NCBI GenBank assembly: GCA_004144175.1
Contig: SEFT01000012.1
Coordinates: 62,001-126,000, forward strand
Reading direction: 5' to 3'
From: Sphingobacteriales bacterium
Lineage (GTDB): Bacteria; Bacteroidota; Bacteroidia; Chitinophagales; Chitinophagaceae
Length of the DNA: 64,000 nt
The translations under genes and the position numbers were made by a program. This document shows, in pieces, positions 22,688 through 42,569 of the stretch (the stretch's first letter is position 1; each line of letters starts with the position of its first letter). Under the pieces are notes generated by a model. The model saw nothing but the letters and a program-made list of their open reading frames with translations. It was not told where the DNA came from and searched no databases.

Positions 22688-22847
22688 AGCTGGCAAATGT
22701 GTATGGATAAATATATGCATTGCCTGTTGCATTTGCTAATGTGCGGCACTAAATAATCTGGCTCTGTTATGTACATTTCCTGAATCTGCACAAATGTCGT
22801 TTTCATTAATGGTTTTGCGTTGGTATAGTGCATATATGATGGCTGCG

Positions 22848-22965
22848 CACGGTGCTGTAATGCTGCTGTAAAGCTGTCGTTAAGCTGCTGTGGTGCTGTC
22901 GCCCTGCTGCTGTGGCGGTGCTGTTGTGGTGGCGCTATGCTGTCGCTGTGCTGCTGCGTGGCTCA
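22848..22965 (-). repeat. C/A-rich low-complexity tail, module A
   Basis: On the minus strand this is a run of irregularly spaced ACAGC and CAGCAGC units with few T residues. It lies about 150-270 nt downstream of the stop codon of the DUF4373-like gene. The same kind of sequence follows the second copy at 33050-33170. It could be a Rho loading site or a slippage-prone array; see the findings. Confidence 0.65.
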
Positions 22966-23051
22966 CGGCTATGCCGTGGGTAGCTTTTTTTGTGGCAACG
23001 AACATTGGTTATGGTGTGTTTTTGTCATGGCCGTATTTGCGGTAAGCACAG

Positions 23052-23077
23052 GCAGACCGCAACCTTTCGGTGCAGTC
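23052..23077. other. Conserved stem-loop, module A
   Basis: GCAGACCG, an 8-nt loop, then CGGTGCAGTC. The arms can pair as GCA/TGC and CCG/CGG with a small bulge. The copy at 33251-33276 has identical arms but a different 8-nt loop, which is what one expects of a structured RNA or protein-binding hairpin. Confidence 0.55.
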
Positions 23078-23113
23078 TTTGCGGAGTGGGGTTGTTGTTC
23101 GTTAGTGTTACCC

Positions 23114-23755
23114 TTATCGTTTGGCGAGTAAATCCCTGATGGCATCAAAGGTGGTGTGGGCCTGCACGCGGAGGTTTGGGTTGGCTTGCAGCCGGTCTAG
23201 TGCGTGGAAAATGGACTTTTCTTTATAGTCGGCACAGAAGGCCATGCTTTGGTGAATGTTGGGCGGGGACAGATGCTTGCTTACATCAGGCGCTCTTTGT
23301 ATGGTCGCCTGCTTTAGCTGGCGGTGCATCTCTACCTCTTTGGTGCTGTAGCCCGCATTTATGCAGTCTTTTGTTTCTTCCTCGTCCGATACCTGTTCGA
23401 CAGGTACTTCACCGGTAGCTGATACATCTGTGGCTTCCGCCTTTTGTTGTTGGTTGCGCCTGGTGTAGCTGAGGGTTGATACCAGGTGGTTATCTTCTAC
23501 CGCCAGCAGTTCGTATATCTCTATCATATCCTGCAGCAGTAGTGCAAATGCATCGGCTGCCATACCTACCTGGCCCGCCAGCCTGCGCATACGTGCCTGG
23601 CTATGCTCTATACGCATACCTTCTTCACGGTGCGTTATTTCCAGTATCATCCAGTAGGTGCCGTAGCCCGCCGGGCCATGGTCGCCTACGAGGGCTGCTA
23701 TCTTTTCATTATGGCGCGTGTCAGTTGAATGGCGGAGGGTCTTTACTCTGGGCAT
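23114..23755 (-). CDS. DUF4373-like (Lin1244/Lin1753 N-terminal) protein, copy A
   Basis: The 213-residue protein starts M-P-R-V-K-T-L-R-H-S. It has the D-x-R-H-N-E-K-I-A-A-L and G-x-x-G-Y-G-T-Y-W-M-I-L-E pattern typical of the DUF4373/Lin1244 N-terminal domain, which is common in phage and mobile-element replication proteins. A low-complexity linker (about 100-125) precedes a C-terminal helical region with A-L-D-R-L-Q-A-N. More than 80 of the first 100 residues are identical by eye to the copy at 33317-33955, while the middle and C-terminal parts diverge. Function unknown; replication or regulation of a mobile unit is inference. Confidence 0.75.
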   Translation of the reverse strand: MPRVKTLRHSTDTRHNEKIAALVGDHGPAGYGTYWMILEITHREEGMRIEHSQARMRRLAGQVGMAADAFALLLQDMIEIYELLAVEDNHLVSTLSYTRRNQQQKAEATDVSATGEVPVEQVSDEEETKDCINAGYSTKEVEMHRQLKQATIQRAPDVSKHLSPPNIHQSMAFCADYKEKSIFHALDRLQANPNLRVQAHTTFDAIRDLLAKR

Positions 23756-23761
23756 GATTCA

Positions 23762-23792
23762 TAGGGTTTATACATGCAAAGATGAGCGATTG
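23762..23792. promoter_or_regulatory. Conserved 31-nt leader, module A
   Basis: This segment just upstream of the DUF4373-like gene is identical to 33962-33992. On the minus strand it contains CATCTTTGC, one base off the TAnnTTTG promoter box, followed by a TATAAA-like stretch close to the ATG. A further conserved block with CACACCCCCTTTGTTT lies at 23812-23827. Confidence 0.5.
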
Positions 23793-23837
23793 ACAAGTGA
23801 TTGTGGCTTTTGCACACCCCCTTTGTTTGCGGGTTTA

Positions 23838-23892
23838 GCCAATCAGGAGATTGGCAGCCAAGCCGACGTCGTCAGAGACTACGCCGAATTGG
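23838..23892. repeat. Tandem-hairpin repeat, copy 1
   Basis: GCCAATC-AGGA-GATTGGC forms a perfect 7-bp hairpin and is followed by a second weak stem around TCAGAGA. A homologous 53-nt element is at 27604-27656. Base changes between the copies keep the first stem paired through a G-U pair. This element is missing from the corresponding place in module B. Confidence 0.55.
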
Positions 23893-28540: not shown

Positions 28541-29989
28541 TTAAACCCAGATATCGCCTGGTTTTTCTGTTGGATTCGGTGTGAGTGGCAGCTTATAACA
28601 TAGGAACGCAATGATCTGGTATCCCTTTATCGTTACAGTATTGCCATCAATGGTAACGTTTTTGCTTTTCTCAGTCGATTCGGTCGTTGTCTTTCCGCCA
28701 ATAGAGAACGGCCCCCAACCCACGCTTACATCTGTATTGGTCTTTAGATAGTTTTCTGATACGTGGTCTGAAAATGCTTTAGAAGTAATCTTCACATCTT
28801 TTATCCATATGGCTGTTGTTGGATAGGCAGGTAGAGGGCCAACGCCTTTGCCGTCGGATACGGTACCTAAAGTAGACTGAGGCCCGAGTTTCCACCCCTG
28901 ACTCAAAATAAACTCAGGAGAGAACCAGTTGCGCATGATAGGCGTCTGTGTTATGGAAAAGGAAATTTTCAAGTCGCTGGTATCTTTGTTTTCCACCGTG
29001 GTTTTATTATTTACCTCAGTTCCGGCTTTCACTTTCCAGAATCCCCAGCCAAGGTTAAGACTTGGGTCGGTATCTACTTTCTTTACACTGCTAAAGGTTT
29101 TGGTTTCAGAATTACTAAACGTGACTTTTGTCCAGCCTTCTGCTTCTTCAGATGCAAAGCTTGTAGGTATAACTCCTGTAAAGTAAAAATCTATATTGCG
29201 CTCGGCATCTGTCAGCCTGTTTGTAGCGGGATCCATGCGCGCCTGCATTTCTGCCTTGATGATTGTCGCATTTTTCTCCTGTATCTGCTTAATATATGTG
29301 CGGGCTCCTTCTACCTCGTTTTTATATCCTTCCGCGGCCCATTCTTCCAGCTTGGTCTGTACACGCTTTTTATAGGTAGCGCCATTTCGCTGAAACTCCA
29401 TATATGCAGCTTTTTCTTCCTTGGTTGCTTCGGCAGGATTGTACAACGCTGCTTCTACCATCAGCTTGTTGAATTCCATTGCAGCGTCTTCATAGGCCTT
29501 CTTGCTCTTTTCATAGGCCTTCACTTTTGCACTGACCATGTATTTTTTCACCATCACGCTGTCATCGTCCTCGTCAGGCACTTCTACTTCCTTACCCAAA
29601 ACAGCACGATTTTTATCCAGTGTTTTTTGCTCGCTTTCGGTAAGTTCCTTGTTGCGTACCTGCGACTCGTCGAGAATTTTTTTATACACATCCCAAAGCA
29701 TACTGCCATTGGCGGCGCGGAAACGCTGCATTACATTTTGTTCGGGTATAATATTGGCGAGTTGGGCAAAGTCGGCAGCTTGTTTCAAAAGCTCCGGATC
29801 GCTGGTGCCTTTGCCAAGAAATTTCAGGTCTTTTGCCTGTACAGGTAAGCCGGGCGTGCACCATGCCAGGTAGTTGGCGTTAGCCTCTGATTTTCCTTCT
29901 TTGGACGAGTCGCTGTCCTGGACAACACCGGTTACAATGCCGGAAATTTTTGTGAGTAGTGCCTGTAAAGCGTCTTTACTGTTTGACAT
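28541..29989 (-). CDS. Large soluble protein of unknown family
   Basis: The 482-residue protein has no signal peptide or membrane segment. The N-terminal half (to about residue 270) is helical and charged, with Lys/Glu-rich segments that should form coiled coils. The C-terminal half is rich in beta-strand and Gly/Trp/Lys: it holds repeated K-T-T and T-E-S-T-E-K stretches, W-F-S-P-E-F-I-L-S-Q-G-W-K-L-G near 360, and a final hydrophobic strand I-I-A-F-L-C-Y-K-L. The layout resembles structural or pore-like proteins, but I cannot assign a family. It precedes the lipoprotein gene by 39 nt. Confidence 0.6.
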   Translation of the reverse strand: MSNSKDALQALLTKISGIVTGVVQDSDSSKEGKSEANANYLAWCTPGLPVQAKDLKFLGKGTSDPELLKQAADFAQLANIIPEQNVMQRFRAANGSMLWDVYKKILDESQVRNKELTESEQKTLDKNRAVLGKEVEVPDEDDDSVMVKKYMVSAKVKAYEKSKKAYEDAAMEFNKLMVEAALYNPAEATKEEKAAYMEFQRNGATYKKRVQTKLEEWAAEGYKNEVEGARTYIKQIQEKNATIIKAEMQARMDPATNRLTDAERNIDFYFTGVIPTSFASEEAEGWTKVTFSNSETKTFSSVKKVDTDPSLNLGWGFWKVKAGTEVNNKTTVENKDTSDLKISFSITQTPIMRNWFSPEFILSQGWKLGPQSTLGTVSDGKGVGPLPAYPTTAIWIKDVKITSKAFSDHVSENYLKTNTDVSVGWGPFSIGGKTTTESTEKSKNVTIDGNTVTIKGYQIIAFLCYKLPLTPNPTEKPGDIWV

Positions 29990-30256
29990 GAAGATTGATT
30001 TTAGAAGTTAAAATTTTGGCAGGCCTGACCAGGTGCGCATATACCTGTTCCAGATCTGTTTTTTTACATTTTCGATACTCAACTGCGTCGAGTAGATACT
30101 GCAAAACAACTTATTGTATCGTGTAATAGACAGAGCGAAACTTCGTGATTGCCAAAACAGGCATTTACATGGTTGAGCGCAGGTAAAAATACCTGCCAAT
30201 CAGTAACGGCAGATGTTTGGGGGCAGTAAAAGAGTGGTGTATAGGTATAGATGCTG

Positions 30257-30952
30257 TTAAATACCCGGAGTTTTTTTTGGAAACCCTATTTCATACAGGT
30301 CGTTTGCTATGGCAAACACAACCAGCCCGGCCGTATTCCTCGAGTCGGTTTTGGCAAGCAGATTATTACGGTGGCCATCTACAGTACGCGGACTAATATA
30401 GAGCTTCTCGGCTATCTCGGTTGTGGTGTACTCCATGCAGATCAACTTTAATATTTCGACCTCTCTTTCGGAAATATCTACCGGCATGTTATTGATGGTA
30501 CGAATAGAACTATTCTTGCTTTTGTGCCTGTAGCCTTCGCGCATGGCCCGTACAGTGCTTTCATTGAAATAAAAGTTGGTTTTGTTTACGGTTCTTATTG
30601 ACAGTACTACTTCCTCAATATCACTATTCTTTTCCAGATAGCCTGCCACGCCCAGAGCTACCATTTTGCTTATGAATCTGTATTGATTGTAAACGGTGAG
30701 TATGATGATTTTAATAGCCGGATATGAGTTTTGCAGTAATTCAGTCACCTCCATGCCGTTCAGGCTGGGCAGGTTCATGTCCAGCAATACAACATCGGGC
30801 AGATCTTCCTGTTCCGATAGCCATTTCATGAATGATGCTCCATCTTCGTGTTCAGACATTACCTCTATATCCGGCTCTCGTTCCAGCATAGCTCTTATGC
30901 CTTTCCTGAAGAGCTTTTGATCTTCCACTAAAGCAATCCTTATTGTTGTCAT
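30257..30952 (-). CDS. NarL/LuxR-family response regulator
   Basis: The 231-residue DNA-binding regulator has a receiver with phosphoacceptor Asp58 in L-L-D-M-N-L-P-S and a C-terminal LuxR helix-turn-helix (about 165-225) with Y-T-T-T-E-I-A-E-K-L-Y-I-S-P-R-T-V-D-G-H. It follows the cognate histidine kinase gene by 6 nt on the same strand. Targets are unknown; the neighbouring genes at 28541-29989 and 27662-28501 are possible ones. Confidence 0.9.
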   Translation of the reverse strand: MTTIRIALVEDQKLFRKGIRAMLEREPDIEVMSEHEDGASFMKWLSEQEDLPDVVLLDMNLPSLNGMEVTELLQNSYPAIKIIILTVYNQYRFISKMVALGVAGYLEKNSDIEEVVLSIRTVNKTNFYFNESTVRAMREGYRHKSKNSSIRTINNMPVDISEREVEILKLICMEYTTTEIAEKLYISPRTVDGHRNNLLAKTDSRNTAGLVVFAIANDLYEIGFPKKTPGI

Positions 30953-30958
30953 AGTCCT

Positions 30959-31723
30959 TTATGTTTCCTTATAGCAAATATGAATACTGCAACCTTTGTT
31001 GATGCCGCTTTGGATATCGCAGGATGCATTTATTACCTGAAGTCTGCTTTTGATATTGTACAAGCCCATTCCGCGGCCCGCCACCCGGGTGTCAAACCCT
31101 TTACCGTTATCTGTGTAAATAATATGCAGCTCATCTTTTGCCTGTTGCATAGAGACCGTAATTAAAGTCGCATCGGCATGCTTCAGGGTATTGTTCAATA
31201 GCTCTTGTATTACCCTGTATAAAGATAAAGCAACATCATTATGCAGACGCTTTGGCATATCTTCTGCTTTGTTGCTATATATGATCTCGACGCCAGATAA
31301 ATGTGCAATATTTTCACATAGCTCTTCAAGTGCATCTGCGAGGCCGAACAGCTCTATGCCCGGCGGCAGCAGCTGATGAGAAATATCCCTTACGCGTGAA
31401 ATGATGCCGTCAATATCTGCCTTTATATCCTTATCTGTATTGGGGATGACCCTTTGTATATGCAACCGAAGGCTGGAAAGCATACTGCCTATTTCATCAT
31501 GCAGGTCGCGGCCAATGCGCTTACGCTCTTCATCCTGGGTATGTACTGATGCTGCTAATAGTGCTTTTTGGTGGTCCATTTCCAGAAGCTGCAGACTTTC
31601 CTTTTGCTTATAGAATTGCCACCGGTACCTGATATAAAAGAACACAATGGCAGTACCCAAAAGAAAGGTTCCTGCCATGCCCAGTATCACCATCACATAT
31701 ATATCAAACTGTTCGTTTTGCAT
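30959..31723 (-). CDS. Membrane sensor histidine kinase (NarX/HisKA_3 type)
   Basis: The kinase has one N-terminal membrane segment (from about residue 14 to 35 of the longer form), a short linker and a HisKA_3 domain with phosphorylated His at 75 (81 if translation starts at 31741) in G-R-D-L-H-D-E-I-G. The HATPase domain has E-L-L-N-N-T-L-K-H-A, D-N-G-K-G-F-D and G-R-G-M-G-L-Y-N-I. I prefer the ATG at 31723, which overlaps the 7TM gene by 20 nt. Its partner is the NarL-type regulator 6 nt downstream. Confidence 0.9.
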   Translation of the reverse strand: MQNEQFDIYVMVILGMAGTFLLGTAIVFFYIRYRWQFYKQKESLQLLEMDHQKALLAASVHTQDEERKRIGRDLHDEIGSMLSSLRLHIQRVIPNTDKDIKADIDGIISRVRDISHQLLPPGIELFGLADALEELCENIAHLSGVEIIYSNKAEDMPKRLHNDVALSLYRVIQELLNNTLKHADATLITVSMQQAKDELHIIYTDNGKGFDTRVAGRGMGLYNIKSRLQVINASCDIQSGINKGCSIHICYKET

Positions 31724-32339
31724 AGTAGAATCCGACTGCAAATAAGATGTACATCAATAGCACCATGGATGCATGGATATTCCAGATAATTGTATTTAGC
31801 GATACATTAGCCAATATATAGTTGCCGCATATAAACAGGAACAGGGAACCGGAAAAGTAAAGCAATAGTCCGGCGTTTATCCAGGTCACTGTTAGCTTCT
31901 GTGGAATAGCATGCTGGTCGTCGAGCGCTTCTTTAAAATAGATGATAGCATAGACCATGATCAGTATTGCCTCTGCCGATCTTGAATAACTATTGTACTC
32001 TGATATAGGCTGCCAAAGCAGCATATTAGTAAGACAGAATACTGTGAAAACGACAGCTATTATAGGTAGTATCAAATGTAATCTTCGGAAAAACAATTGT
32101 CGGAAAAATATAGATAACAGGGAGAATTCTAAAATTGTATACACGTGAAAGACAGGCATGTTGTTGATGCCTTGTGTAGCCAGCGTTTTCACTATGACAT
32201 TGGTAAGGACGCCCAATAACAGATACCCGATAAACCATTTTAGCGCTACGGGCAGGTACTTGTACCTCCGCAGCGCTATGGTTAAAGGCAATAAAATTCC
32301 CAGGGGTACTATCACGCCCATATATAAGTGTAAATACAT
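31704..32339 (-). CDS. Seven-transmembrane hypothetical protein upstream of the kinase
   Basis: The 211-residue protein is almost entirely hydrophobic helices, about seven, with short charged loops. Its gene's end overlaps the histidine kinase start, which indicates one transcript and coupled translation. Proteins of this layout preceding NarX-like kinases may act as the sensory or signal-input subunit; that role is inference from position. Confidence 0.75.
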   Translation of the reverse strand: MYLHLYMGVIVPLGILLPLTIALRRYKYLPVALKWFIGYLLLGVLTNVIVKTLATQGINNMPVFHVYTILEFSLLSIFFRQLFFRRLHLILPIIAVVFTVFCLTNMLLWQPISEYNSYSRSAEAILIMVYAIIYFKEALDDQHAIPQKLTVTWINAGLLLYFSGSLFLFICGNYILANVSLNTIIWNIHASMVLLMYILFAVGFYYAKRTV

Positions 32340-32345
32340 GCAGCT

Positions 32346-32765
32346 TTATTCTTCTGCTTTTGCGGGTTCCTGGGGTCCATACAGAACGCTGGCTTTGTCA
32401 CATAATACAGGGCAAGGCTGCGTGAGGTCGAATATATAGGTGCTATCGGGGGCTCCATCGGCTCCATGCAAGATGTCTTTTTCTCCGTCGGGTACAGCCG
32501 TATCCGCTACTATCGGTACTATCATCAGTTTCAGGGAGCCAGGGTTGTCAGGCGCATCGGCTGCAAGGTAGGCCCGCACAGCTACTGCTTCATCAATTGC
32601 GGCAAGGTTTCTGATGTCTTCAATAGGTATACGGAAGCTCCGCAGGATATCCTCAGAACCACTACCCGGAAAAGTGTTTAGAAACAGTTCTCTCCAATTG
32701 GCGCATTTTTGCACGGCATAGTGGATCGGCATGCTTTTGACCTTAAGGCTGCTATTTATTTTCAT
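32346..32765 (-). CDS. Hypothetical protein heading the two-component operon
   Basis: This 139-residue protein is soluble with no signal peptide. It contains a helical N-terminal part and an A/D-rich middle (A-A-D-A-P-D-N-P-G-S). The motif C-P-V-L-C-D-K near residue 119 is a possible thiol pair. A start at Met12 is also possible. It is followed 6 nt later by the 7TM gene, so it likely begins a four-gene signalling operon. Unknown family. Confidence 0.6.
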   Translation of the reverse strand: MKINSSLKVKSMPIHYAVQKCANWRELFLNTFPGSGSEDILRSFRIPIEDIRNLAAIDEAVAVRAYLAADAPDNPGSLKLMIVPIVADTAVPDGEKDILHGADGAPDSTYIFDLTQPCPVLCDKASVLYGPQEPAKAEE

Positions 32766-33049
32766 CTTTTTGGTGTTTGCTACAAAGCAACAAAAAATGT
32801 TTGCTAAATAAGCATAGTAGTTAGCTGTCTGCGTCTGCTGCCCAAGCTGCGCTTACAACTAAGGACTTGCTGAGGTTGATAACCGTAGTTTAATTTTGGA
32901 GCTTTAGTTGAGCCTGCATTCACTTGCGAAAACCGGATCAGAGCCGTGCCTGGATATTGCTTAGATGATTGAAAACAAGCATGTTCTATTGAAAGTGCGT
33001 AAAGTTTTAGTTTCAGTAGTGGTTTTGTTTTGGTTTGATGGCTGTATAA

Positions 33050-33170
33050 TAGCTGTACACGCTGCTGTGATGGTGTCGTAAAGCTGCTGCTATCCTGCTG
33101 TTGTGGTGGCGTTGTGCTGTTGTTGTGCTGGTGTTGTGCTGCTGCAAAGGTGGTGCTATGTTGTTGTGAC
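33050..33170 (-). repeat. C/A-rich low-complexity tail, module B
   Basis: On the minus strand this is a run of ACAACA, CACAAC and CAGCAGC units with almost no G between them. It lies 150-270 nt past the stop of the DUF4373-like gene, as in module A. Confidence 0.65.
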
Positions 33171-33250
33171 TTCGTTAGTTCTGTTTGTTGTAGCATAGCC
33201 TTCGTTTATGGCGTGTCTTAGTAATGGTTTGTTCATCGTAATAAACACAT

Positions 33251-33276
33251 GCAGACCGCGTCCCTCCGGTGCAGTC
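33251..33276. other. Conserved stem-loop, module B
   Basis: The arms GCAGACCG and CGGTGCAGTC are the same as in module A (23052-23077), with a different 8-nt loop. It lies downstream of the gene and before the C/A-rich tail. Confidence 0.55.
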
Positions 33277-33316
33277 GTTGTTGTGTGTGATGTGTGTTGG
33301 CCGGTGGTTGCCTTTG

Positions 33317-33955
33317 TTATTTATCCAACACACGCCTTACGGCATCGTAGACGGTGGTGGTGCGGTTGCGGAGGGTGGCATTGGCTTGTAGTCGGTCAAG
33401 CGCGGTAAATACCGATTGCTCTTTATAATTGTTGTAGATGTAGAGGCTCTGGTCGATGGCTAGCGGACATAGCGAGCGCCATACATCCGGCGCTCTTTGT
33501 TCTACCACCTGCTTCAGCCAGTGGTGGGTCTTTATCTCCCCGTCGTTATACCCGCGCCTTATATATGCTTTTATTTCTTCGTCCTGCGCTATTTGTGCTA
33601 CAGGCACCTCGCCGATAGCCGGGTCTTCATTGGCTTCAGATTTTTGTGGTTTGGCGCGCCGGGTGTAGCTGAGGGTTGATGTAAGATATCCATCTTCCAC
33701 CGCCAGCAGCTCGTATATCTCTATCATGTCATCCAGCAGTTGTGCAAATACATCGGCTGCCATACCTACCTGCCCTGCCAGCCTGCGTATGCGTGCTTTG
33801 CTATGTTCTATGCGCATGTCTTGTTCGCGATGCATTATCTCCAGTATCATCCAGTAGGCGCCGTAGCCCGCAGGGCCATGGTCGCCTACGAGGGCTGCTA
33901 TCTTTTCATTATGGCGCGCGTCGCTTGAGTGGCGAAGGATCTTTGCTCTGGGCAT
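33317..33955 (-). CDS. DUF4373-like (Lin1244/Lin1753 N-terminal) protein, copy B
   Basis: The 212-residue protein closely matches copy A in the first 100 residues (R-H-N-E-K-I-A-A-L, G-Y-G-A-Y-W-M-I-L-E, R-L-A-G-Q-V-G-M-A-A-D). The linker and helical C-terminus are more divergent but keep R-A-P-D-V and A-L-D-R-L-Q-A-N. Neither copy carries a stop or frameshift, so both may be functional. The N-terminal domain resembles phage replication or regulatory proteins; the actual role is unknown. Confidence 0.75.
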   Translation of the reverse strand: MPRAKILRHSSDARHNEKIAALVGDHGPAGYGAYWMILEIMHREQDMRIEHSKARIRRLAGQVGMAADVFAQLLDDMIEIYELLAVEDGYLTSTLSYTRRAKPQKSEANEDPAIGEVPVAQIAQDEEIKAYIRRGYNDGEIKTHHWLKQVVEQRAPDVWRSLCPLAIDQSLYIYNNYKEQSVFTALDRLQANATLRNRTTTVYDAVRRVLDK

Positions 33956-34309
33956 GGCTTCTAGGGTTTATACATGCAAAGATGAGCGATTGGTAGATGG
34001 TGTTGGCTTTTACACACCCCCTTTGTTTAGCGTGTGTAGAAGACTTTTGCAGCAAGCTCGTTTACTACTATTCGGCTTCAACGGCGATAGCACCGTTCAT
34101 CGTTTGGAATGCTATCGAACTAGTTATGCAAGCACAGGTGGAAACACTTGCGCCAATTGAGGCCGGCTGTAATTAGTGTTCCCAACAGGAAAGTTTGTGA
34201 ACTTTTTGCTGAACGATTTAAAAAAAATCTCGACAGTTAAGCCAGTCTGAATTGACTAGGTTGAACCACTAAGCTGCTATGTAATACAGGGAATGCTTTT
34301 TAAGGATTG
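33956..34309. other. Intergenic region between module B and the A+T-rich operon
   Basis: The first 205 nt belong to the right end of module B. The middle includes an inverted repeat GATAGC...GCTATC near 34086-34116. The final 150 nt are A+T-rich and hold no gene or signal I recognise. Confidence 0.55.
33962..33992. promoter_or_regulatory. Conserved 31-nt leader, module B
   Basis: Identical to 23762-23792. It precedes the second DUF4373-like gene at the same distance and carries the same CATCTTTGC box on the minus strand. Confidence 0.5.
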
Positions 34310-35091
34310 TTATTGGTTATAAAAGCGACGAACCTTAGAAGGCACTCGTTCTTCCCAATCTTCTGACTTGATATGGAATGCATGCCATTGCTTTTGGGGA
34401 TTATCACCTTCATAATAGAATTCGACAAAAGTATTGTGACCGGCATCAAAGTTAAACAGTTTCTCTTGACCTCGACGGCTATTGAAGTCAGCAATTGCCG
34501 TGTTTAGAAGTCTCTGTGCCTCTGCTCGATTACAAAGAAGCGCGAAGCGGTGGGCCAATGTCCAACTCCATTTTCACCGTGTTTTGCGGATAGGTTAAAA
34601 TTTCTAGCACCTCCTGCCATAGCTACCCAAGCTAATATATTGTCCAGCGATCCAACTACTTCAACACTATGTCTCTTGAGATCGTCAGGAGCTATTGCGA
34701 CATAAACCGTTTTCGTACCCGAACTAATTGTCTGCGAAATTATAGCTGTTCGATGTGGAGGTTCAATAGCAGAAAAAGCATTATCAGTAATGTGTTCCAA
34801 TGTAGTATTCGCGCCGGCAAAATGCATTTTAAAAACATGGGAGTTTACTCTGGAACCCTTTGCATTCTGCAGCGCGCGATCCAGTAAACTTGCTTTTGAC
34901 GTGCGAAACTCTTTATGTAAATCTTCACAATTCCGGACGAATTCCTTCAATTGTGAAGGTTCATACAGGACAGTTAATTGGTGTTGATACGCGAACTCAG
35001 CTAATCTCACAAGTATGTGCAAATATTGATCTGGGTGTTCCGTATATGCTTCCCAATCTAAATCCAGAATTATATTTAAATTGCGATACAC
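34310..35091 (-). pseudogene. Third gene of the DUF262/AAA operon, split by a frameshift
   Basis: Frame one (35091 to 34504) gives 195 residues and ends in an odd tail (R-F-F-V-I-E-Q-R-H-R-D-F). A second frame on the same strand (34558 to 34310) continues the protein sensibly (A-L-L-C-N-R-A-E-A-Q-R-L-L) for a total near 255 residues. One missing base within about 34535-34560 would rejoin them; a G lost from the TGGCCC run fits. The GTG start at 35091 directly follows the AAA gene's TAG. No family recognised; the C-terminal part is aromatic and charged. It could be a decayed gene or a sequencing error. Confidence 0.6.
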
Positions 35092-36237
35092 CTAAAAGCC
35101 CATTAAAAAATTTCGGTCGATTTGAAACTGGTCAAAAAAACCTGTAGGTGGATAAATTATTTTGCCATCTTCTTCAATCGGCACGGCTTTACATATGGTC
35201 TTATGTTCATCTTGATCTCGTTTAAAATAATAAATACGAGTGCATTCCCGGTCAATCCCTTTCCCTTCTGTTTCGAACTTTTTACACTGAACCAGAATAC
35301 CATTTATTATATGATCGCTGTGAGTTTCCAAAATTATCTGAACACCAGCTTGACTAGCCAAACAGATTAATTCGGTGAGTTTTGCTTGCCCAGTCGGATG
35401 AAGGTGGGCTTCTGGATTCTCGATAAAAAGCAATGTGCCTGGTTGGGCAGAGAGAATAGCCACGATAATAGGCATTACATATGTCACTCCGAAGCCAACA
35501 TTCTCGGCCTTGATGTCATCTGTTTTTCCACGGTTAGTGCCAGTTTGAAATTGGTACCTAAGTTCATAACCGAGATTGCCATAGTCTTGAATGACAATAT
35601 CAATACCTTCACTAATTTCTGCCTCCCATGCCGTTGTTTGACTAAGCAAATCTGACGAAAGGGTTAGAGGACTTCTTAATTCTGGTATTACGTCTAAATC
35701 TCGTTTTGAACTAAGGAAATGTACAAAATGTTCTGCGCGGCCCGCAATCACTGAAATTTGGTTATAAACTTCAACGACAACATCGTCTTTTGGGTAGGAT
35801 GGCTGCGGCCCCATTCTACCTGCACTGATAAATTGGCAGGATTTTCCGAACAGACTTTGTTGACTTAATTGAGCGCGGTCATATAGGTGGTTTGCTGCGG
35901 GGGCTTGGTACATAACTGTTTTAGTTAAGTCAGCATCTCCTGATGAAAACGAAAACATGAACTCTTGGTGGTCTATGTTCAAACGGAATGTGATTTCATT
36001 TTTATCACTAAATTGATACAGCGCATCCTTTCCCGTACCGACATTTACAGGGTTAGATTTAAAGTCAAGGTATGCAAATTGATCATTTACGAAAAACGAC
36101 TCCCTTAACAATAGTAGTGCATGAATAACTGACGATTTTCCTACTCCGTTGGTTCCGCATAGCACGTTCAGATTGGATAAAGAAACTTCGGTTTTTCTGT
36201 GAGACTTGAAATTTTCAAGTGTTATACCTGTTACCAT
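35092..36237 (-). CDS. AAA-family ATPase with DUF3696-like C-terminus
   Basis: The 381-residue protein has an ABC/SMC-like ATPase layout. Walker A is G-T-N-G-V-G-K-S-S (28-36), Walker B is L-L-F-I-E-N-P-E-A-H-L-H-P, and the H-loop region is L-E-T-H-S-D-H-I-I-N-G. The C-terminus (P-P-T-G-F-F-D-Q-F) matches DUF3696 proteins. Such ATPases are often found in anti-phage or toxin-antitoxin-like pairs. Its ATG overlaps the end of the DUF262 gene by 7 nt, so it is the second gene of the operon and, unlike its neighbours, is intact. Confidence 0.85.
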   Translation of the reverse strand: MVTGITLENFKSHRKTEVSLSNLNVLCGTNGVGKSSVIHALLLLRESFFVNDQFAYLDFKSNPVNVGTGKDALYQFSDKNEITFRLNIDHQEFMFSFSSGDADLTKTVMYQAPAANHLYDRAQLSQQSLFGKSCQFISAGRMGPQPSYPKDDVVVEVYNQISVIAGRAEHFVHFLSSKRDLDVIPELRSPLTLSSDLLSQTTAWEAEISEGIDIVIQDYGNLGYELRYQFQTGTNRGKTDDIKAENVGFGVTYVMPIIVAILSAQPGTLLFIENPEAHLHPTGQAKLTELICLASQAGVQIILETHSDHIINGILVQCKKFETEGKGIDRECTRIYYFKRDQDEHKTICKAVPIEEDGKIIYPPTGFFDQFQIDRNFLMGF

Positions 36238-37381
36238 ATTGCGTTAGTTACCAAATTGTGAATCTTCTCATATCGGTATTTCACTCTCTCTTTTGCAGCC
36301 GTTCCTGTAGTAATGGATTGCGAAAAGCCATGCTGATGGTGAAGTGCTACAAACGCATTTATAAAATCTTCTTTGTGTTGCTTAAGAATATCTCGCTCAA
36401 AATCGTTCAACTTGGCGAAAATAACACTCAAAACCTCGAAAAGCGACTTATTGATTGGCTTGCGACGTCCGTCAGACGTTCGAACTTTTCTAAAAGCATC
36501 TCTCCCGAATATTTCAATTGCTAACAGCATTGATTCATTAAAGGCATATTTAATTTCTGCCTGCCGAACAATATTATCTGGGATTGCTTTTGTACCTAGA
36601 GTCATAAACGTATCCATATCAGGCTCGTACTGTTCATGTCCTATTAGATAAAACGAAATAAAACGGGTAACGAAATCTAAATCTTGTTGCCTTTTAGTTG
36701 GTACAGAATAATTTGTTGCAGATTGAAAGTCACTCCCTTCAACAGAGTCGGGCGCAACGAGACTTTCCAAAAAATCAATACGAAATCCCTGAAATAATGC
36801 TGTTCGTATTTCTTGAGGCTCCAACTCAATACCCCCCTGGTTAATTCGGCTGAAAATATTGTATTTAACCTGATCAGGTGTTCCTTTACCTATTAAGTTA
36901 ATCGTAACCTGATTTGTCGATATGCGACGTTGAATATCTCTAGGTAGTTCTGCCCACGTTTTATTGTTAAACTCAGTTCTGAATTCCAAGTCAATGAGTT
37001 TGAACGGCTCTGCATGTTTACCAATAGTCGCTTTTTCAGTTCCCCCTAATATAAAATGTTCCAATGTGCTCACCCTCTGTAATCCATCAATTACCCGCCA
37101 CTTTTTATCTTCTCCTTCATCAAAATAAAAAACTGGGGTCGGAAGGTTAAGCATCAGAGACTCAATAAATCTGCTTTTTTCTTTTGATCCCACAGATTGG
37201 GCAATCGTTGATATTTCGGTACAAGAATTTCATTGTACTCAAGCATATCTGCCAACTGCCCAATTGTTCGAGGCGTGATGTTAATGTTGATTTCGTTTGG
37301 GTTGAAGGGAACTTCGTTGTGGACCAGATCGTTGCCTTCTTCGGCTTCAATATCATTTATTTCAGTATTGTTAATGTCCAT
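36231..37381 (-). pseudogene. DUF262-domain protein, split by a frameshift
   Basis: The N-terminal 75 residues (37381 to 37154) end just after Y-Q-R-L-P-N-L-W-D-Q-K-K-K, where the frame breaks. The rest (37193 to 36231) continues with S-R-F-I-E-S-L-M-L-N-L-P. A single missing A in a six-A run (about 37175-37180) separates the two frames; restoring it gives one ORF of about 380 residues. DUF262 (ParB/Srx-fold, GmrSD-like) hallmarks are D-G-L-Q-R-V-S-T-L and F-S-R-I-N-Q-G-G-I-E-L-E-P-Q-E-I-R. It leads a three-gene operon with the AAA ATPase. The break could be real decay or a homopolymer sequencing error. Confidence 0.75.
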
Positions 37382-37511
37382 ACAAAATCCTAATCATAAT
37401 TTATGCTATAAATAATAACATTATTAAAATCCAAGCTACTTAAAGTTTTTCGCATGCTAAAATCATTCTGTAAGAAGGATCAAAAAATGTAATCCCCATG
37501 TTGTATCAAAT

Positions 37512-37552
37512 AAAAAAGCAGTTATGAACCTTGGTTCGTAACTGCCTTTTTT
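37512..37552 (-). terminator. Terminator of the tRNA-Leu gene
   Basis: Arms 37512-37529 and 37534-37552 (AAAAAAGCAGTTATGAAC against GTTCGTAACTGCCTTTTTT) form a long stem ending in T-runs on the minus strand. It lies just 3' of the tRNA and 130 nt before the DUF262 gene. Confidence 0.85.
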
Positions 37553-37555
37553 AAG

Positions 37556-37639
37556 TGCCCAGAACAGGAATCGAACCTGCACTCCCTTGCGAAAACCAGA
37601 TTTTGAGTCTAGCGCGTCTACCAATTCCGCCATCTGGGC
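37556..37639 (-). tRNA. tRNA-Leu (anticodon CAA)
   Basis: The minus-strand sequence begins GCCCAGATGGCGGAATTGG and ends TCTGGGCA. The 7-bp acceptor stem pairs perfectly (GCCCAGA/TCTGGGC). The anticodon loop is CTCAAAA with anticodon CAA, the extra arm is long as expected for tRNA-Leu, and the T arm has GGTTCGATTCC. The CCA end is not encoded. Length is about 84 nt. The A+T-rich defence-like operon lies on its 3' side. Confidence 0.95.
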
Positions 37640-37660
37640 CTAAGCACATCCGCCCTGCTT

Positions 37661-38197
37661 TTATGCATTGCGGGATGCAAATGTATCCATTCTTTCCTGA
37701 ATCCGCAACAGGTATTTTTTGCGGAAGTAGTAGTCTTTTATTTGTAATAGCAGCTCATTGCTTTGGTCGCCATTGTCAAACCTGTCGAGCAGGGGAGCAA
37801 TAGCGTCCTGCCATTCCTGTAGCTGTGTTTGCAGCATGGTTTGCGCCTGTTGTTGCAGGCCGGTATTGGCAGGTTCCATTTCGTAATCGCTCAGGGTTTC
37901 GTTCAGGTCCATCATTTCCATCAGGAAGGCAGGGGGCAGGTTATACTTTTCTTCCTCTTCCAGCACGCCATGCAGCTTCAGTATATAGGCCATCAGCGCA
38001 TCGGCACTGTTCAGCGTTTTATATGCATCATTGTTCATGGCCGACATACGGAGGGCTTCGGCGCGGGTGGCGTCATCGGCCATCGTAAAGCGGTCGGGGT
38101 GGTAGCGGCGGCTCAGTTCATAGAACTTTGTCTTCACTGCTGCGGCATCAGGGCTAAAGCGCACCGGCTGCTCGTATAGATCGAAGTAATTGGTCAT
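37661..38197 (-). CDS. hscB: Fe-S cluster co-chaperone HscB
   Basis: The 178-residue J-domain co-chaperone has the H-P-D motif at residues 33-35 (R-R-Y-H-P-D-R-F) and a C-terminal three-helix domain rich in Glu and Gln that binds the scaffold IscU. It would stimulate HscA ATPase during iron-sulfur cluster assembly; hscA itself is not in the window. Its gene is divergent from the saccharopine dehydrogenase-like gene. Confidence 0.88.
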   Translation of the reverse strand: MTNYFDLYEQPVRFSPDAAAVKTKFYELSRRYHPDRFTMADDATRAEALRMSAMNNDAYKTLNSADALMAYILKLHGVLEEEEKYNLPPAFLMEMMDLNETLSDYEMEPANTGLQQQAQTMLQTQLQEWQDAIAPLLDRFDNGDQSNELLLQIKDYYFRKKYLLRIQERMDTFASRNA

Positions 38198-38200
38198 TAG

Positions 38201-38230
38201 TTGTGGTCGGTATAGTATACCTTATCTTTG
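38201..38230 (+). promoter_or_regulatory. Promoter of the saccharopine dehydrogenase-like gene
   Basis: TTG at 38201-38203, a 19-nt spacer and TATCTTTG at 38223-38230 match the Bacteroidota consensus. The start would be near 38237, which fixes translation at the ATG at 38251 rather than the in-frame codon at 38203. Confidence 0.75.
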
Positions 38231-38250
38231 CGGTCACAAAAGTAGTTAAG

Positions 38251-39456
38251 ATGCTTCGTATAGGACTCGTCAGAGAAAGAAAAACACCGCCGGATACACG
38301 CGTGCCACTTACCCCTAAGCAATGTGTAGAGGTAATAGAGCAATACCCCGATATAAAGATCGTGGTAGAGCCATCGCCCGACCGCGCCTTCCCAGACAGT
38401 GCCTACACCGAAGCCGGCATACCCTTACAGGAAGACCTGAGCGATTGCGATGTGCTGCTGGGGGTAAAAGAGGTGCCAGCCGATAAGCTGATACCCAACA
38501 AGACCTACTTCTTCTTTAGCCATACCAAAAAGAAGCAGCCGTATAACAAGAAACTGATGCAGGCGCTCATAAAAAACGGCATCCGCATGATAGATTACGA
38601 ATGCCTCACTCATGCCGATGAGCAGCGCATACTGGGCTTCGGGCTGTATGCGGGTATCGTGGGTGCGCACAATGGCCTGATGACTTACGGCAAGAAGTTC
38701 GGTGCGTTCGACCTGCCTGCTGCGCATAGTGTAGGCACGTACCAGGAGCTGCTGGACATCTATGCAAAGACCAAAATGCCGAATATAAAGATAGCTATGA
38801 CGGGCAGCGGTAAAGTCGCTGCTGGTATACTGGAGGTAATGACCCACCTGGACATCGAACCGGTAGAACCCGAAGACTACCTGACGCATCAATACGAGTA
38901 CCCGGTATACACGCACCTGAAGGGTAGCTCGCTATACTCGCGGAAGGACAATGGCGAGTTTCACCGTGATGACTTCCATGCGCATCCGGAGAATTATAAG
39001 TGTGTATTCTCGCGCTTTGTGCCGCAGACCGATATATTGATGAACGGTATCTACTGGGATAGAAAGATAGCCCGCCTGTTCGAGAAGCAGGATGTGCAGC
39101 GCAAGGACTGGCGCATCAGTGTGATATCGGACATCACCTGCGATATAGATGGCTCTGTGCCGATCAACGTGGGCGCATCCACAATTGCTGATCCTGTGTA
39201 TGGTATTGATAGAAATACGCTGGATAAAGCACAGCCCTTCCGGAATACGAAGGATGTGATAGATGTAATGGCCGTAGACAACCTGCCGAATGAGCTACCT
39301 GCTGATGCCAGCCAGTACTTTGGTGCGCACTTTGCTAAGTTTGTACTGCCCGAGCTGCTGAATGGCGATAGCGATATCATTAAGCGCGCTACCATTTGCG
39401 AGAACGGAAGGCTTACTAAATATTACGAGTACCTGAGCGACTATGCTTACGAATAG
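38251..39456 (+). CDS. Saccharopine dehydrogenase (lysine-forming)-like NAD(P)-dependent enzyme
   Basis: The 401-residue protein belongs to the alanine dehydrogenase/PNT superfamily. It has an N-terminal domain beginning L-R-I-G-L-V-R-E-R-K-T-P-P-D-T-R-V-P-L-T, a nucleotide-binding loop T-G-S-G-K-V-A-A-G near 190 and a C-terminal I-S-D-I-T-C-D-I-D-G-S near 300. These fit the Bacteroidota LYS1-type family (L-lysine-forming), as against alanine dehydrogenase, but the exact substrate is inferred. The start is set by the promoter 21 nt upstream. Confidence 0.8.
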   Translation: MLRIGLVRERKTPPDTRVPLTPKQCVEVIEQYPDIKIVVEPSPDRAFPDSAYTEAGIPLQEDLSDCDVLLGVKEVPADKLIPNKTYFFFSHTKKKQPYNKKLMQALIKNGIRMIDYECLTHADEQRILGFGLYAGIVGAHNGLMTYGKKFGAFDLPAAHSVGTYQELLDIYAKTKMPNIKIAMTGSGKVAAGILEVMTHLDIEPVEPEDYLTHQYEYPVYTHLKGSSLYSRKDNGEFHRDDFHAHPENYKCVFSRFVPQTDILMNGIYWDRKIARLFEKQDVQRKDWRISVISDITCDIDGSVPINVGASTIADPVYGIDRNTLDKAQPFRNTKDVIDVMAVDNLPNELPADASQYFGAHFAKFVLPELLNGDSDIIKRATICENGRLTKYYEYLSDYAYE

Positions 39457-39459
39457 TCG

Positions 39460-40380
39460 TTAGCTCTGCAGTAGTTGCCTTACGGCGCTGTTGATATCGG
39501 GGTAGTCGAACTGGAAGCCCGTGGTGGAGCTCATTTTGTCGGCACTTACGGTGCAGCTCTTCAGTACTTCGGTGCTCATTTCGCCCAGCATCAGTTTTAG
39601 GGCTGCTGCGGGTACAGGTGCCGGTATGGCCAGCCCGCCTTTCTCCTGGGCTATGGTATCCATCAGTTTTTTATTGGTCACCGGGTTGGGGGCTACAGCA
39701 TTGTATATGCCATTGATATCTTCATGACGTATGCAGTGGTATATGAAGCGTACCAGGTCTTCTATGTGTATCCAGCTAATGACCTGCTTGCCGCTGCCCA
39801 GTACGGGCTTCACGCCGAACTTTACCGGCTTGTAAAACTCTTTGAAAGCGCCGGCTTCTCTGCCCAGCACTATGCCAAAGCGCAAGATAGTAGTACGTAC
39901 AAAATCGGCAGCTTGTATGGCTTCGTGCTCCCATTTTTTACAAGTATCGCCCAGGAAGTCGTCTGCATGGCGGTCGCTCTCATGGAAGGGTGCGCGGTTG
40001 TTGTCGGCACCGTAGTAGCCTATGGCCGATGCAGAGATGAAGGTCTTGCAGTTGGGGGCATGTTCGCGCAACTTATCTACCAGGAAGGCAGTAGTTTCTA
40101 CACGACTTTTAACAATTTCTTCTTTACGCTTCTTGGTCCAGCGCTTTTCAGCGATGCCGGCACCTGCCAGATGTACCATAGCATCTACGCGCTGTATGCA
40201 GGTGAGGTCGCATTTGTTTTCGCGGGGGCTCCAGTAGCAGTAGGTGATACCGTCCTTGCTCTGGTCTTTCTTCTCGGGGTTTCGGGTAAATATAACTACC
40301 TGGTTGCCAGCATCGCGCAGCAGCCGGGTTACGTGGTGCCCTACAAATCCTGTTCCCCCTGTTATGCCTATCGTCCTCAT
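39460..40380 (-). CDS. TIGR01777-family NAD-dependent epimerase (YfcH/SDR39U1-like)
   Basis: The 306-residue extended SDR begins I-T-G-G-T-G-F-V-G-H-H-V (NAD-binding motif) and contains H-L-A-G-A-G-I near 70, S-A-S-A-I-G-Y-Y-G (catalytic Tyr) near 118-126, and D-F-L-G near 140. Its C-terminal extension (about 240-306) is the family's DUF1731 domain. The substrate is not known. It is convergent with the saccharopine dehydrogenase-like gene with only 3 nt between the stops. Confidence 0.9.
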   Translation of the reverse strand: MRTIGITGGTGFVGHHVTRLLRDAGNQVVIFTRNPEKKDQSKDGITYCYWSPRENKCDLTCIQRVDAMVHLAGAGIAEKRWTKKRKEEIVKSRVETTAFLVDKLREHAPNCKTFISASAIGYYGADNNRAPFHESDRHADDFLGDTCKKWEHEAIQAADFVRTTILRFGIVLGREAGAFKEFYKPVKFGVKPVLGSGKQVISWIHIEDLVRFIYHCIRHEDINGIYNAVAPNPVTNKKLMDTIAQEKGGLAIPAPVPAAALKLMLGEMSTEVLKSCTVSADKMSSTTGFQFDYPDINSAVRQLLQS

Positions 40381-40616
40381 CTATACCTGTTTATGTTATA
40401 ACCAAATTCCGCTGTTAAAGTTGGCGCAAACAGTACTAAAAAACTATACCTGTTTGCAGTGTTGTTTGTGCAAACTGTTTTCGTAATGCGAGTGATTTAC
40501 AGCAATAAATTTAAAGCTATGTAAAAAGAAAAAATAATTTTAATTTCAATACAATAAAGGTTGACTAGTGCCGTTTGTTTTATAATTCACTTATTGTTTA
40601 CCAATCGTTACAAAAC

Positions 40617-40811
40617 ATGAATAAAACTTTACGCAAAAAACTTATCGTATCTAAAGAACAAATACCTGCGCGAATGGAGAAAGAGAACAGCAGCGAGCAG
40701 CTCATGGAGCTGATGCAGGACATGAAGGGTGTATGGAGAGAAGCCGCAACAGACCTGTTGCAGCCACGCCCCGAAGCAGTAGCCCAGTTGCTAAAGAAAG
40801 TGCTACACTAA
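40617..40811 (+). CDS. Small hypothetical protein
   Basis: From the ATG at 40617 the protein is 64 residues, begins M-N-K-T-L-R-K-K-L-I-V and is charged and helical with many Gln and Glu residues. No membrane segment or cysteine is present. Its 3' end overlaps the end of the convergent metallophosphoesterase gene by 9 nt. A short gene of this type is plausible but unproven. Confidence 0.4.
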   Translation: MNKTLRKKLIVSKEQIPARMEKENSSEQLMELMQDMKGVWREAATDLLQPRPEAVAQLLKKVLH

Positions 40812-42050
40812 TTCGATCACTGTTATTTCGGGTAGTATGCCCAGGCGGCCGGGATAACCCAGGAAGCCAAAGCCCCTGTTCACATACAGGTATTGGTTTT
40901 CCTCTTTGGTAAGGCCTGCCCAGTTGCGGTACACATACTGCACCGGGCTCCACTTAAAGCCGGGTATCTCTATGCCAAACTGCATGCCGTGTGTATGGCC
41001 TGCAAAGGCGATGTCGATGTCTTTGTATTCGGTACGTACCTGTGCATCCCAGTGCGATGGATCGTGCGACAGCAACATCTTGAACGGCACGTTCTGTTCG
41101 GGTAATCCTGCGTAGGCTTTGCGCATATCGCCGTATTTAGGGAAGCCCGCTTTGGCGCCCCAGTTCTCAATGCCTATAACGGCTATCTTGTCGTTGCCGC
41201 GGTTCAGTATCACGTGCTCATTCATTAGCAGGCGCCAGCCCATGGCAGCATGTGTCTTCTTCAGCCATTCCAGGTTGGCTACTTTGGCTTGTGCCGATGG
41301 CCATTCTACATAGTCGCCATAGTCGTGGTTACCGAGGGTAGAGTAAACACCCATTGGTGCCCGTAGCTGCGAGAATATATCGGTGTATGGTTGTATCTCA
41401 TCAGCCTTATTATTTACCAGGTCGCCGGTGAAGAAGATCATATCGGGGCGCTCGGCCATTATCTTGTCTATGCCGCGCTGCACCGCCTTGTGGCTATCGA
41501 AGCTGCCCGAGTGGACATCGGATATCTGTACTATTTTGAGCCCGCGGAAGGACGCAGGCAGATTATCGAATTTGATTTTTACCCTGCGTACCTGGTATTT
41601 ATAACGGTTGGTGATGCCATAGATGAAGCTAAGCAGTGTAGCCCCGCCCAGCGCCATAGCCAGGTGTGTAATGAATACCGAGCGCGGAATGCCGTTGCCT
41701 GTGGTGGTAGCTGGAACCTGCTGCTTTGTTTGAAAGAATCCCGCTATCCATACAATCAGCCTGCGTATCTCGTCGCTCAGCATCACGGGCACCACTACTA
41801 TCTTGCTCACCATATAGCCGATGACAAACGCCACGTAAATATTGCGGGCCATGTGCGGCATCTCTGCCCAGTTGATCTTACGTAGGAATATAAAGCTGGT
41901 CCAGGCAACGAGCGATACCAGAAAGTGAAATACGATGATAGACACACGCGCCGCGGGCGGCATATGGCGCACGGCCAGGCGTATCACGATAAAGCTATAA
42001 TATTCGCCCAGGATGAGCAGTATAAGCGGGATAATAAACCGGGCTGGCAT
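40803..42050 (-). CDS. Membrane-anchored metallophosphoesterase
   Basis: The 415-residue protein has about five N-terminal membrane segments (to residue 165) and a calcineurin-like phosphoesterase domain: Q-I-S-D-V-H-S, T-G-D-L-V-N, G-N-H-D-Y-G, S-H-D-P and A-G-H-T-H-G with the metal-binding His and Asp residues. The YkuE/LpxG-like architecture suggests a membrane phospholipid or lipid A precursor as substrate, unproven. It precedes the FMN reductase gene on the transcript; the two are 18 nt apart. Confidence 0.9.
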   Translation of the reverse strand: MPARFIIPLILLILGEYYSFIVIRLAVRHMPPAARVSIIVFHFLVSLVAWTSFIFLRKINWAEMPHMARNIYVAFVIGYMVSKIVVVPVMLSDEIRRLIVWIAGFFQTKQQVPATTTGNGIPRSVFITHLAMALGGATLLSFIYGITNRYKYQVRRVKIKFDNLPASFRGLKIVQISDVHSGSFDSHKAVQRGIDKIMAERPDMIFFTGDLVNNKADEIQPYTDIFSQLRAPMGVYSTLGNHDYGDYVEWPSAQAKVANLEWLKKTHAAMGWRLLMNEHVILNRGNDKIAVIGIENWGAKAGFPKYGDMRKAYAGLPEQNVPFKMLLSHDPSHWDAQVRTEYKDIDIAFAGHTHGMQFGIEIPGFKWSPVQYVYRNWAGLTKEENQYLYVNRGFGFLGYPGRLGILPEITVIELV

Positions 42051-42068
42051 CTGTTGGTATGGTGCTGA

Positions 42069-42569
42069 TTAAAATTTCAGAAATTCTTCTATCTGTTGGA
42101 TGATCACTAGCTCTGTAGCGGGCTTCAGTATGTCGCCTGCTTCGTTTATCTCGTCGTTTATACGGCTGATGGGCACTTTGTTGTACAGTACGTTCACGCG
42201 CAGGTAGTGCAGTATGTTGGTCATATGCTCCATGCCGCGCAGGTTGCCCGCACGTCCGTCGGCTACGCCTACCAGCATAGCTTTCTTATACCACCAGCAT
42301 TTCTTGATATCGCTGTTGTCAAGCATTAGCTTGAGTATGCCGGGGAAGCTGCCATTGTACTCGGGCATTACGAATACGAACTTTTCGGACGGTATCAGCA
42401 GGCGTTCTTCGGTAGCAATCAGCTCAGCGCTGCGGTCCCAAACGTTGAGGTCTTCCAGCGTAAGCAGTTGTACATCATCTGCCCGTTGAGACATCATGTT
42501 GTAGTACAGCTTTGCCACTTTCAGCGTCATGCTGTCCTTTCGGTTCGTTCCGGATATGATCGTGATCAT
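42069..42569 (-). CDS. NADPH-dependent FMN reductase
   Basis: The 166-residue flavodoxin-like oxidoreductase has G-T-N-R-K-D-S (phosphate loop), P-E-Y-N-G-S-F-P-G near 88 and the conserved D-G-R-A-G-N-L-R-G segment near 118. It lies upstream of the metallophosphoesterase gene on the minus strand. A CAAAGGTA box on the plus strand at 42598-42605 (TACCTTTG in reverse) could be its promoter. Confidence 0.9.
   Translation of the reverse strand: MITIISGTNRKDSMTLKVAKLYYNMMSQRADDVQLLTLEDLNVWDRSAELIATEERLLIPSEKFVFVMPEYNGSFPGILKLMLDNSDIKKCWWYKKAMLVGVADGRAGNLRGMEHMTNILHYLRVNVLYNKVPISRINDEINEAGDILKPATELVIIQQIEEFLKF

Follow-up and report, generated by a model that had tools for sequence, protein, structure and literature searches.

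A predicted copy of the Menshen anti-phage operon, frameshifted in two genes as sequenced, behind tRNA-Leu in a Sphingobacteriales bacterium

NsnA, NsnB and NsnC are names that we take to denote the components of the anti-phage system Menshen (Millman et al. 2022). That meaning is borne out by the record of a Vibrio phage (PQ189377, Vibrio phage 10N.286.55.E6_PE002), in which consecutive genes carry the notes 'Menshen__NsnA', 'Menshen__NsnB' and 'Menshen__NsnC_...'. According to a passage of the review PMC10952713, Menshen no longer protects once its DUF262 gene is lost. A 2026 review, PMC12926258, in its passage on Menshen, still lists the mechanism among the unknowns. A second system of similar build is ptuXYZ, which according to PMC11980606 combines a DUF262 protein with a PtuA-like ATPase and a protein of the PIN-like/YoeB kind. 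The main text of that paper does not mention Menshen, and no other paper using the name ptuXYZ was found in the literature searched.

The operon and its match to Menshen

The window, meaning the whole stretch of DNA analysed here, is 64,000 nucleotides long. The initial annotation placed a three-gene operon at 34310-37381, adjoining a tRNA-Leu gene, and proposed a three-part defence system made of a DUF262 protein, a DUF3696 ATPase and a third protein of no known family. Re-reading the sequence gave the operon at the same coordinates. The overlap reported at 36231-36237 is present, the end of nsnA lying within the start of nsnB, as is the TAG/GTG junction at 35092, where nsnC starts with GTG immediately after the nsnB stop codon. 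The operon is indeed more A+T-rich than its flanks, with a GC content of 0.391 (34158-37554) against 0.500 (37640-42569) and 0.440 (28541-32765). The GC content of the whole window is 0.471, and GC3 is 0.34 for nsnB compared with 0.61-0.64 for three right-flank genes. ARAGORN detected a single tRNA in the window, tRNA-Leu(CAA), at 37555-37639 on the minus strand; the operon therefore lies on its 3' side, as had been claimed. A terminator-like hairpin and T run follow the tRNA immediately (37512-37552, minus strand, by sequence reading).

All three genes are on the minus strand, and two of them are split. The first consists of two overlapping frames. The N-terminal piece of nsnA (37154-37381) has 75 amino acids and an early stop past the frameshift, and matches the PADLOC NsnA model at 3.3e-13 over model positions 19-86. 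The C-terminal piece (36231-37193), in a different frame, contains the DUF262 domain with a DGLQR motif and matches NsnA at 1.5e-101 over positions 81-383. Pfam confirmed DUF262 (GmrSD_N, 6.7e-17). The second gene, nsnB (35092-36237), is intact and encodes an ABC-type ATPase that matches NsnB at 9.4e-94; DUF3696 was confirmed at its C-terminus (3.1e-7), alongside AAA_15 (1.8e-29) and AAA_21. The third gene is likewise in two frames. The N-terminal piece of nsnC (34504-35091) has 195 amino acids, again with an early stop past the frameshift, and the C-terminal piece (34310-34558), in a different frame, contains a predicted CdiA-toxin-like domain. Since both pieces match PADLOC NsnC models (3.3e-19, positions 1-189, and 1.9e-26, positions 197-269), the third protein does not belong to an unknown family.

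The operon is almost certainly a copy of Menshen (nsnA-nsnB-nsnC), judging from these model matches. All three proteins match models of that system, and the genes are adjacent and in the same order as in PQ189377, whose NsnB shares 29.1% identity with the window NsnB over 99%. The window copy differs in that two of its three genes are frameshifted, and its defence function is predicted from sequence only. One published statement may speak against the assignment: according to a passage of PMC10952713, one Menshen component has a TOPRIM/OLD nuclease domain, but Pfam finds no TOPRIM match in the window's proteins. The PADLOC match to NsnB spans residues 1-379, and the 345-position model is covered without a TOPRIM domain. 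The proposal of a three-part defence system at a tRNA integration point thus holds as such, but the system is not new, and with two of three genes frameshifted as sequenced the working of this copy is putative.

The initial annotation also called for a survey of co-occurrence, and the three families were found together, in order, in other genomes. Using nsnB as the query, 19 loci were obtained from named genomes, with an NsnA-like gene upstream of NsnB in 15/19 and a third open frame downstream in 19/19. At the level of the order, NsnB was found at 1e-60 or better in 16/198 genomes, including the window's own, and in 0/14 named controls. The three genes are in order in 11/16 of the order-level NsnB matches outside the window's own genome. 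At L010 nsnA is not next door. Four matches have longer NsnB-like genes; three of these lack an adjacent nsnA, and the contig of the fourth (L022) starts too close upstream to tell. The NsnA model at 1e-30 identified 45/395 genomes of the phylum, own included, and 1/14 controls. Thirty NsnA loci were fetched, and an NsnB-like gene lies directly downstream in 16 (own included) and is absent there in 14, so DUF262 alone is not specific. The third-gene proteins submitted to PADLOC all match NsnC models (15/15). A survey with one NsnC model found 2/59 genomes, own included; it did not pick up the Menshen of relative G006, which has an NsnC of a different type.

No NsnC relatives were found in viral contigs, and the plasmid search gave no DNA match. 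The phage set contained 15 records with NsnB-like stretches, one of which covers 80% or more of the query. In PQ189377 the trio identified by the record's notes (L146, 2096-5994) is near a noted phage 186-type integrase and a type II methyltransferase. Two other trios (L007 and L009) sit between genes that resemble another defence cluster, judging the open frames by eye. Four loci (L037:5724-8078, L038:5720-8027, L040:5736-8060 and L041:5717-8023) have NsnB-NsnC pairs in which a protein of about 90 amino acids replaces NsnA. One of these small proteins matches Cas2 weakly (1.3e-4, below the Pfam cut-off), and the other three have no match but share 25-28% identity with it. These pairs are possibly an NsnA-less variant of Menshen.

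Frameshifts in nsnA and nsnC

In the sequence as it stands, a net loss of one base splits nsnA, and another splits nsnC. Both nsnA pieces match one open frame in 14/19 of the loci found with nsnB, and both nsnC pieces do so in six. A codon alignment revealed that the frame continues beyond the window's stop point in 12 homologous nsnA genes. At the nsnA break the window has a run of six A residues, compared with seven, in frame, in L023. At the nsnC break, the codons for '...PTAS' and for 'LLCN...' are separated by one base fewer in the window than in six homologues. Either recent decay or an error of sequencing could have produced these breaks.

On balance we favor the joint claim that the operon is a Menshen copy and has truly decayed in both nsnA and nsnC. 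An unlikely alternative, though one to be taken seriously, is that both frameshifts are sequencing or assembly errors and that the cell has an intact, working Menshen. The nsnA loss sits in an A run, a classic site of error, nsnB has no break, and the pieces of nsnA jointly span model positions 19-383 of 385. Furthermore, nsnB is in two frames in a relative from a metagenome bin (L026), so such splits do occur in assemblies. The nsnC loss, however, is outside any homopolymer. The assembly is also not generally frameshifted, since 5/5 conserved genes of the right flank can be aligned with relatives over almost their entire length and 15/15 DUF4373 matches in the same genome have no internal stop.

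There is a far slimmer chance that the split is tolerated or switchable, through coupled translation of the NsnA pieces or through slippage on the A run that restores the frame in some cells. The nsnA break has a TGATG, in which the stop codon of the first piece overlaps an ATG of the second, as well as the A run, and the second piece retains the whole DGLQR motif. But the ATG encodes a methionine common to all 12 homologues, so the TGATG needs no special explanation. The A run is just six long, the nsnC break has neither a TGATG nor an A run, and 0/12 aligned homologous nsnA genes are split. A programmed frameshift was dropped from consideration because the homologues are unsplit.

The hscB-tRNA-Leu junction and the DUF4373 element

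The gene hscB was found in 13/15 genomes of the genus, including the window's own, and its linkage to the tRNA is conserved: tRNA-Leu(CAA) follows hscB in 12/12 relatives that have it. On the right side of the junction, four genes are common to 12/12 relatives and a fifth to 11/12, the stretch from L075 ending before it. Beyond the tRNA, gene content differs among the 12 relatives. Ten proteins from six of the 12 loci were scanned with PADLOC, which recognized defence-type genes in at least six of the 12 relatives (six loci scanned). They are a second Menshen and a type IIG enzyme (G006), DndC and PbeC/DndD-like proteins (G012), a type I specificity subunit (G010), DUF262 proteins (G002 and G004) and a Mokosh-like helicase piece (G008). 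The junction is a hotspot of the genus, a slot that related bacteria fill with other, often defence, genes. The Menshen operon would have arrived horizontally in this genus-wide hotspot behind hscB-tRNA-Leu(CAA).

In G003 (L078), the 3' end of the tRNA recurs 4.5 kb beyond tRNA-Leu, on its downstream side, as a 41-base near-perfect repeat, which indicates that integration at this tRNA has occurred in the genus. Of the 12 genomes, G003 and G006, and marginally G013, are the only ones in which repeats of the tRNA beyond it exceed 30 shuffles. In the window, 25/29 bases at 32910-32938 (minus strand) match an inner stretch of tRNA-Leu in the same orientation, with a score of 38, where the highest of 200 block shuffles reached 31. 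This is probably the relic of an attachment site, to judge from its sequence. No integrase above the cut-off was found between the relic and the tRNA in the six frames scanned with Pfam, frame 32804-33196 being outside the scan; a Phage_int_M match on the DUF4373 protein, at 0.074, is far below the cut-off. The relic alone does not set the left limit of the accessory DNA, since 0/14 relatives within the genus have a match to the protein encoded at 28541-29989.

The same tRNA-bounded stretch contains a copy (33010-34157, minus strand) of a dispersed element of about 1.1 kb, whose relation to the operon is putative. A second copy in the window is at 22801-23838. The element carries a DUF4373/Lin1244_N gene that matches a PHROG replication initiation protein (2.5e-7). 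Its own genome holds 15 matches, and at 1e-15 none of the other 197 genomes in the order has any. At 1e-3, one or two weak DUF4373 matches were found in 11/14 relatives of the genus (23-29% identity, best 1.6e-15), so the domain itself also occurs elsewhere; among the genomes examined, it is amplified in this one only. By eye, all 15 copies have the upstream motif AGG(G/A)GGTGT. A repeat array with an 11-base period gave the top lag in 7/10 tails examined and was not seen in two.

The upstream motif of the element, AAAGGGGGTGTGCAAA, has 26 sites at up to 2 mismatches, compared with 0 for the reversed control. Two of them (G000:C77:15391 and 26478, in L107 and L103) precede genes that, by eye, resemble those for a phage head protease and a baseplate protein. 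The element possibly shares control with a prophage. A 2-kb stretch with GC below 0.39 is found within 5 kb of 6/15 element copies and 0/40 hand-spaced controls (Fisher 1.7e-4), with 4/15 vs 0/40 at a cut-off of 0.38 and 7/15 vs 3/40 at 0.40. The comparison covers L087-L100 and window positions 28636-38636. Proteins beside element copies were chosen by eye for PADLOC. Defence-type genes adjoin at least four copies, namely Menshen (window), AriA/AriB (L090), DUF262 plus type II RM (L096) and an OLD/AriA-like ATPase (L100). The single proteins from L093 and L094 had no PADLOC match.

One reading of these observations is that the tRNA-bounded 32.9-37.6 kb is a single mobile unit, a satellite-like module of which this genome has 15 copies, with Menshen as the cargo of this one and possibly PARIS-like, restriction-modification or OLD-like genes as that of others. 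The features behind it are the replication-initiator-like DUF4373 gene, the upstream motif shared with prophage-like genes and the 11-bp array, which resembles iterons. We consider this doubtful. Two results count against it: consistent flanking repeats were not found in the five other DUF4373 loci inspected, and a tRNA is in the fetched stretch of only 2/14 other copies.

NsnC and the proposed mechanism

The C-terminus of NsnC varies from locus to locus. At L008, NsnC ends in a YoeB toxin domain (Pfam, 5.1e-11); the nine other NsnC relatives of the ten submitted gave no Pfam match above the cut-off. An alignment of NsnC shows two invariant histidines. An intact operon with the window's type of NsnC is that of Flavobacterium sp. 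P3160 (L027). The C-terminal 77 residues of the window NsnC (34310-34543), folded with seven relatives, gave a model with a pLDDT of 84. The full-length model is poor (pLDDT 60.9). The best PDB match of the C-terminal model is a CDI complex, 5t87 (Foldseek E 0.14, probability 0.97, TM 0.54). Against the CDI toxin chain 5t87_E the model has a Z of 6.7 and an rmsd of 2.8 over 67 residues, with Z 3.6 for the next row and Z 3.2 for HigB2, values to be read with the caution that a Z below 8 can be a common arrangement. The sequence profile of the domain found nothing useful in the PDB (best E 0.93). A passage of PMC9111745 identifies the 5T87 toxin as CdiA-CT of Cupriavidus taiwanensis. Because of this CdiA-toxin-like predicted fold, NsnC is probably a toxic effector of the polymorphic-toxin kind, which would be controlled by NsnA and NsnB. 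The domain finding may already be part of the work of Li et al. 2025 on domain polymorphism in Menshen.

NsnB resembles AriA, PtuA, GajA and OLD by sequence. The DGLQR motif of NsnA is common to all 12 homologues and resembles the NTP-binding DGQQR motif of DUF262 enzymes, as given in part of PMC10952713. In an intact copy, NsnB, an ATPase of the AriA/PtuA/OLD kind, and NsnA, as a DUF262 NTP-binding switch, would sense infection and then release or activate NsnC. The interchangeable C-terminal domain of NsnC, here CdiA-toxin-like, would poison the infected cell, resulting in suicide and not in a phage-specific attack. We hold this mechanism, with sensing by NsnA/NsnB and NsnC as the effector, tentatively, at slightly less than even confidence.

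A rival on mechanism, which leaves the identity of the operon unchanged, is type IV restriction of the GmrSD kind, in which the DUF262 protein and its partners would cut modified phage DNA. DUF262 is common to GmrSD, BrxU and SspE, as stated in part of PMC10952713, and in a passage of PMC11980606 the ptuXYZ protein with DUF262 is regarded as a putative nuclease. These enzymes and NsnA share the DUF262 domain with a DGxQR-type motif, but the window operon differs from them in having no DUF1524 by Pfam, nor was a DUF1524/HNH partner domain found by Pfam. The best PADLOC matches are to NsnA and not to type IV enzymes, and in one variant (L008) a toxin domain is on the third gene. We consider this reading very improbable. 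As an identity for the operon, GmrSD type IV restriction was dropped because no DUF1524 accompanies DUF262 (Pfam). Septu (PtuAB) was also dropped; the scanned frames have no HNH Pfam match and no PtuB is among the PADLOC matches listed.

The likeness to PARIS (AriA-AriB) is in the AriA-kind ATPase, NsnB matching AriA models and AriA chains (2.2e-4). PARIS consists of an ATPase and a single effector and is not known to include a DUF262 protein. The likeness to ptuXYZ extends to the whole operon, which in the description given in PMC11980606 is, like that of the window, made of a DUF262 protein, a PtuA-like ATPase and a two-domain third protein. The third proteins appear to differ. That of ptuXYZ has a YoeB-related BECR C-terminus, whereas the window NsnC has no YoeB Pfam match and its C-terminal model is CdiA-toxin-like. 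At L008, NsnB and NsnC match Menshen models, the first gene matches the window NsnA pieces, and the build is that of ptuXYZ. Because the YoeB-ended NsnC of this locus has the build described for PtuZ, we infer that ptuXYZ systems are variants of Menshen.

The operon thereby ties together two literatures, those of Menshen and ptuXYZ, and otherwise adds little as a Menshen copy. The amplified DUF4373 element may merit more attention than the operon. The suggestion that NsnC carries swappable polymorphic-toxin domains makes a test of the effector direct. Turnover of this kind, with two of three genes decaying at a hotspot, is what would be expected of costly systems, provided that the breaks are real.
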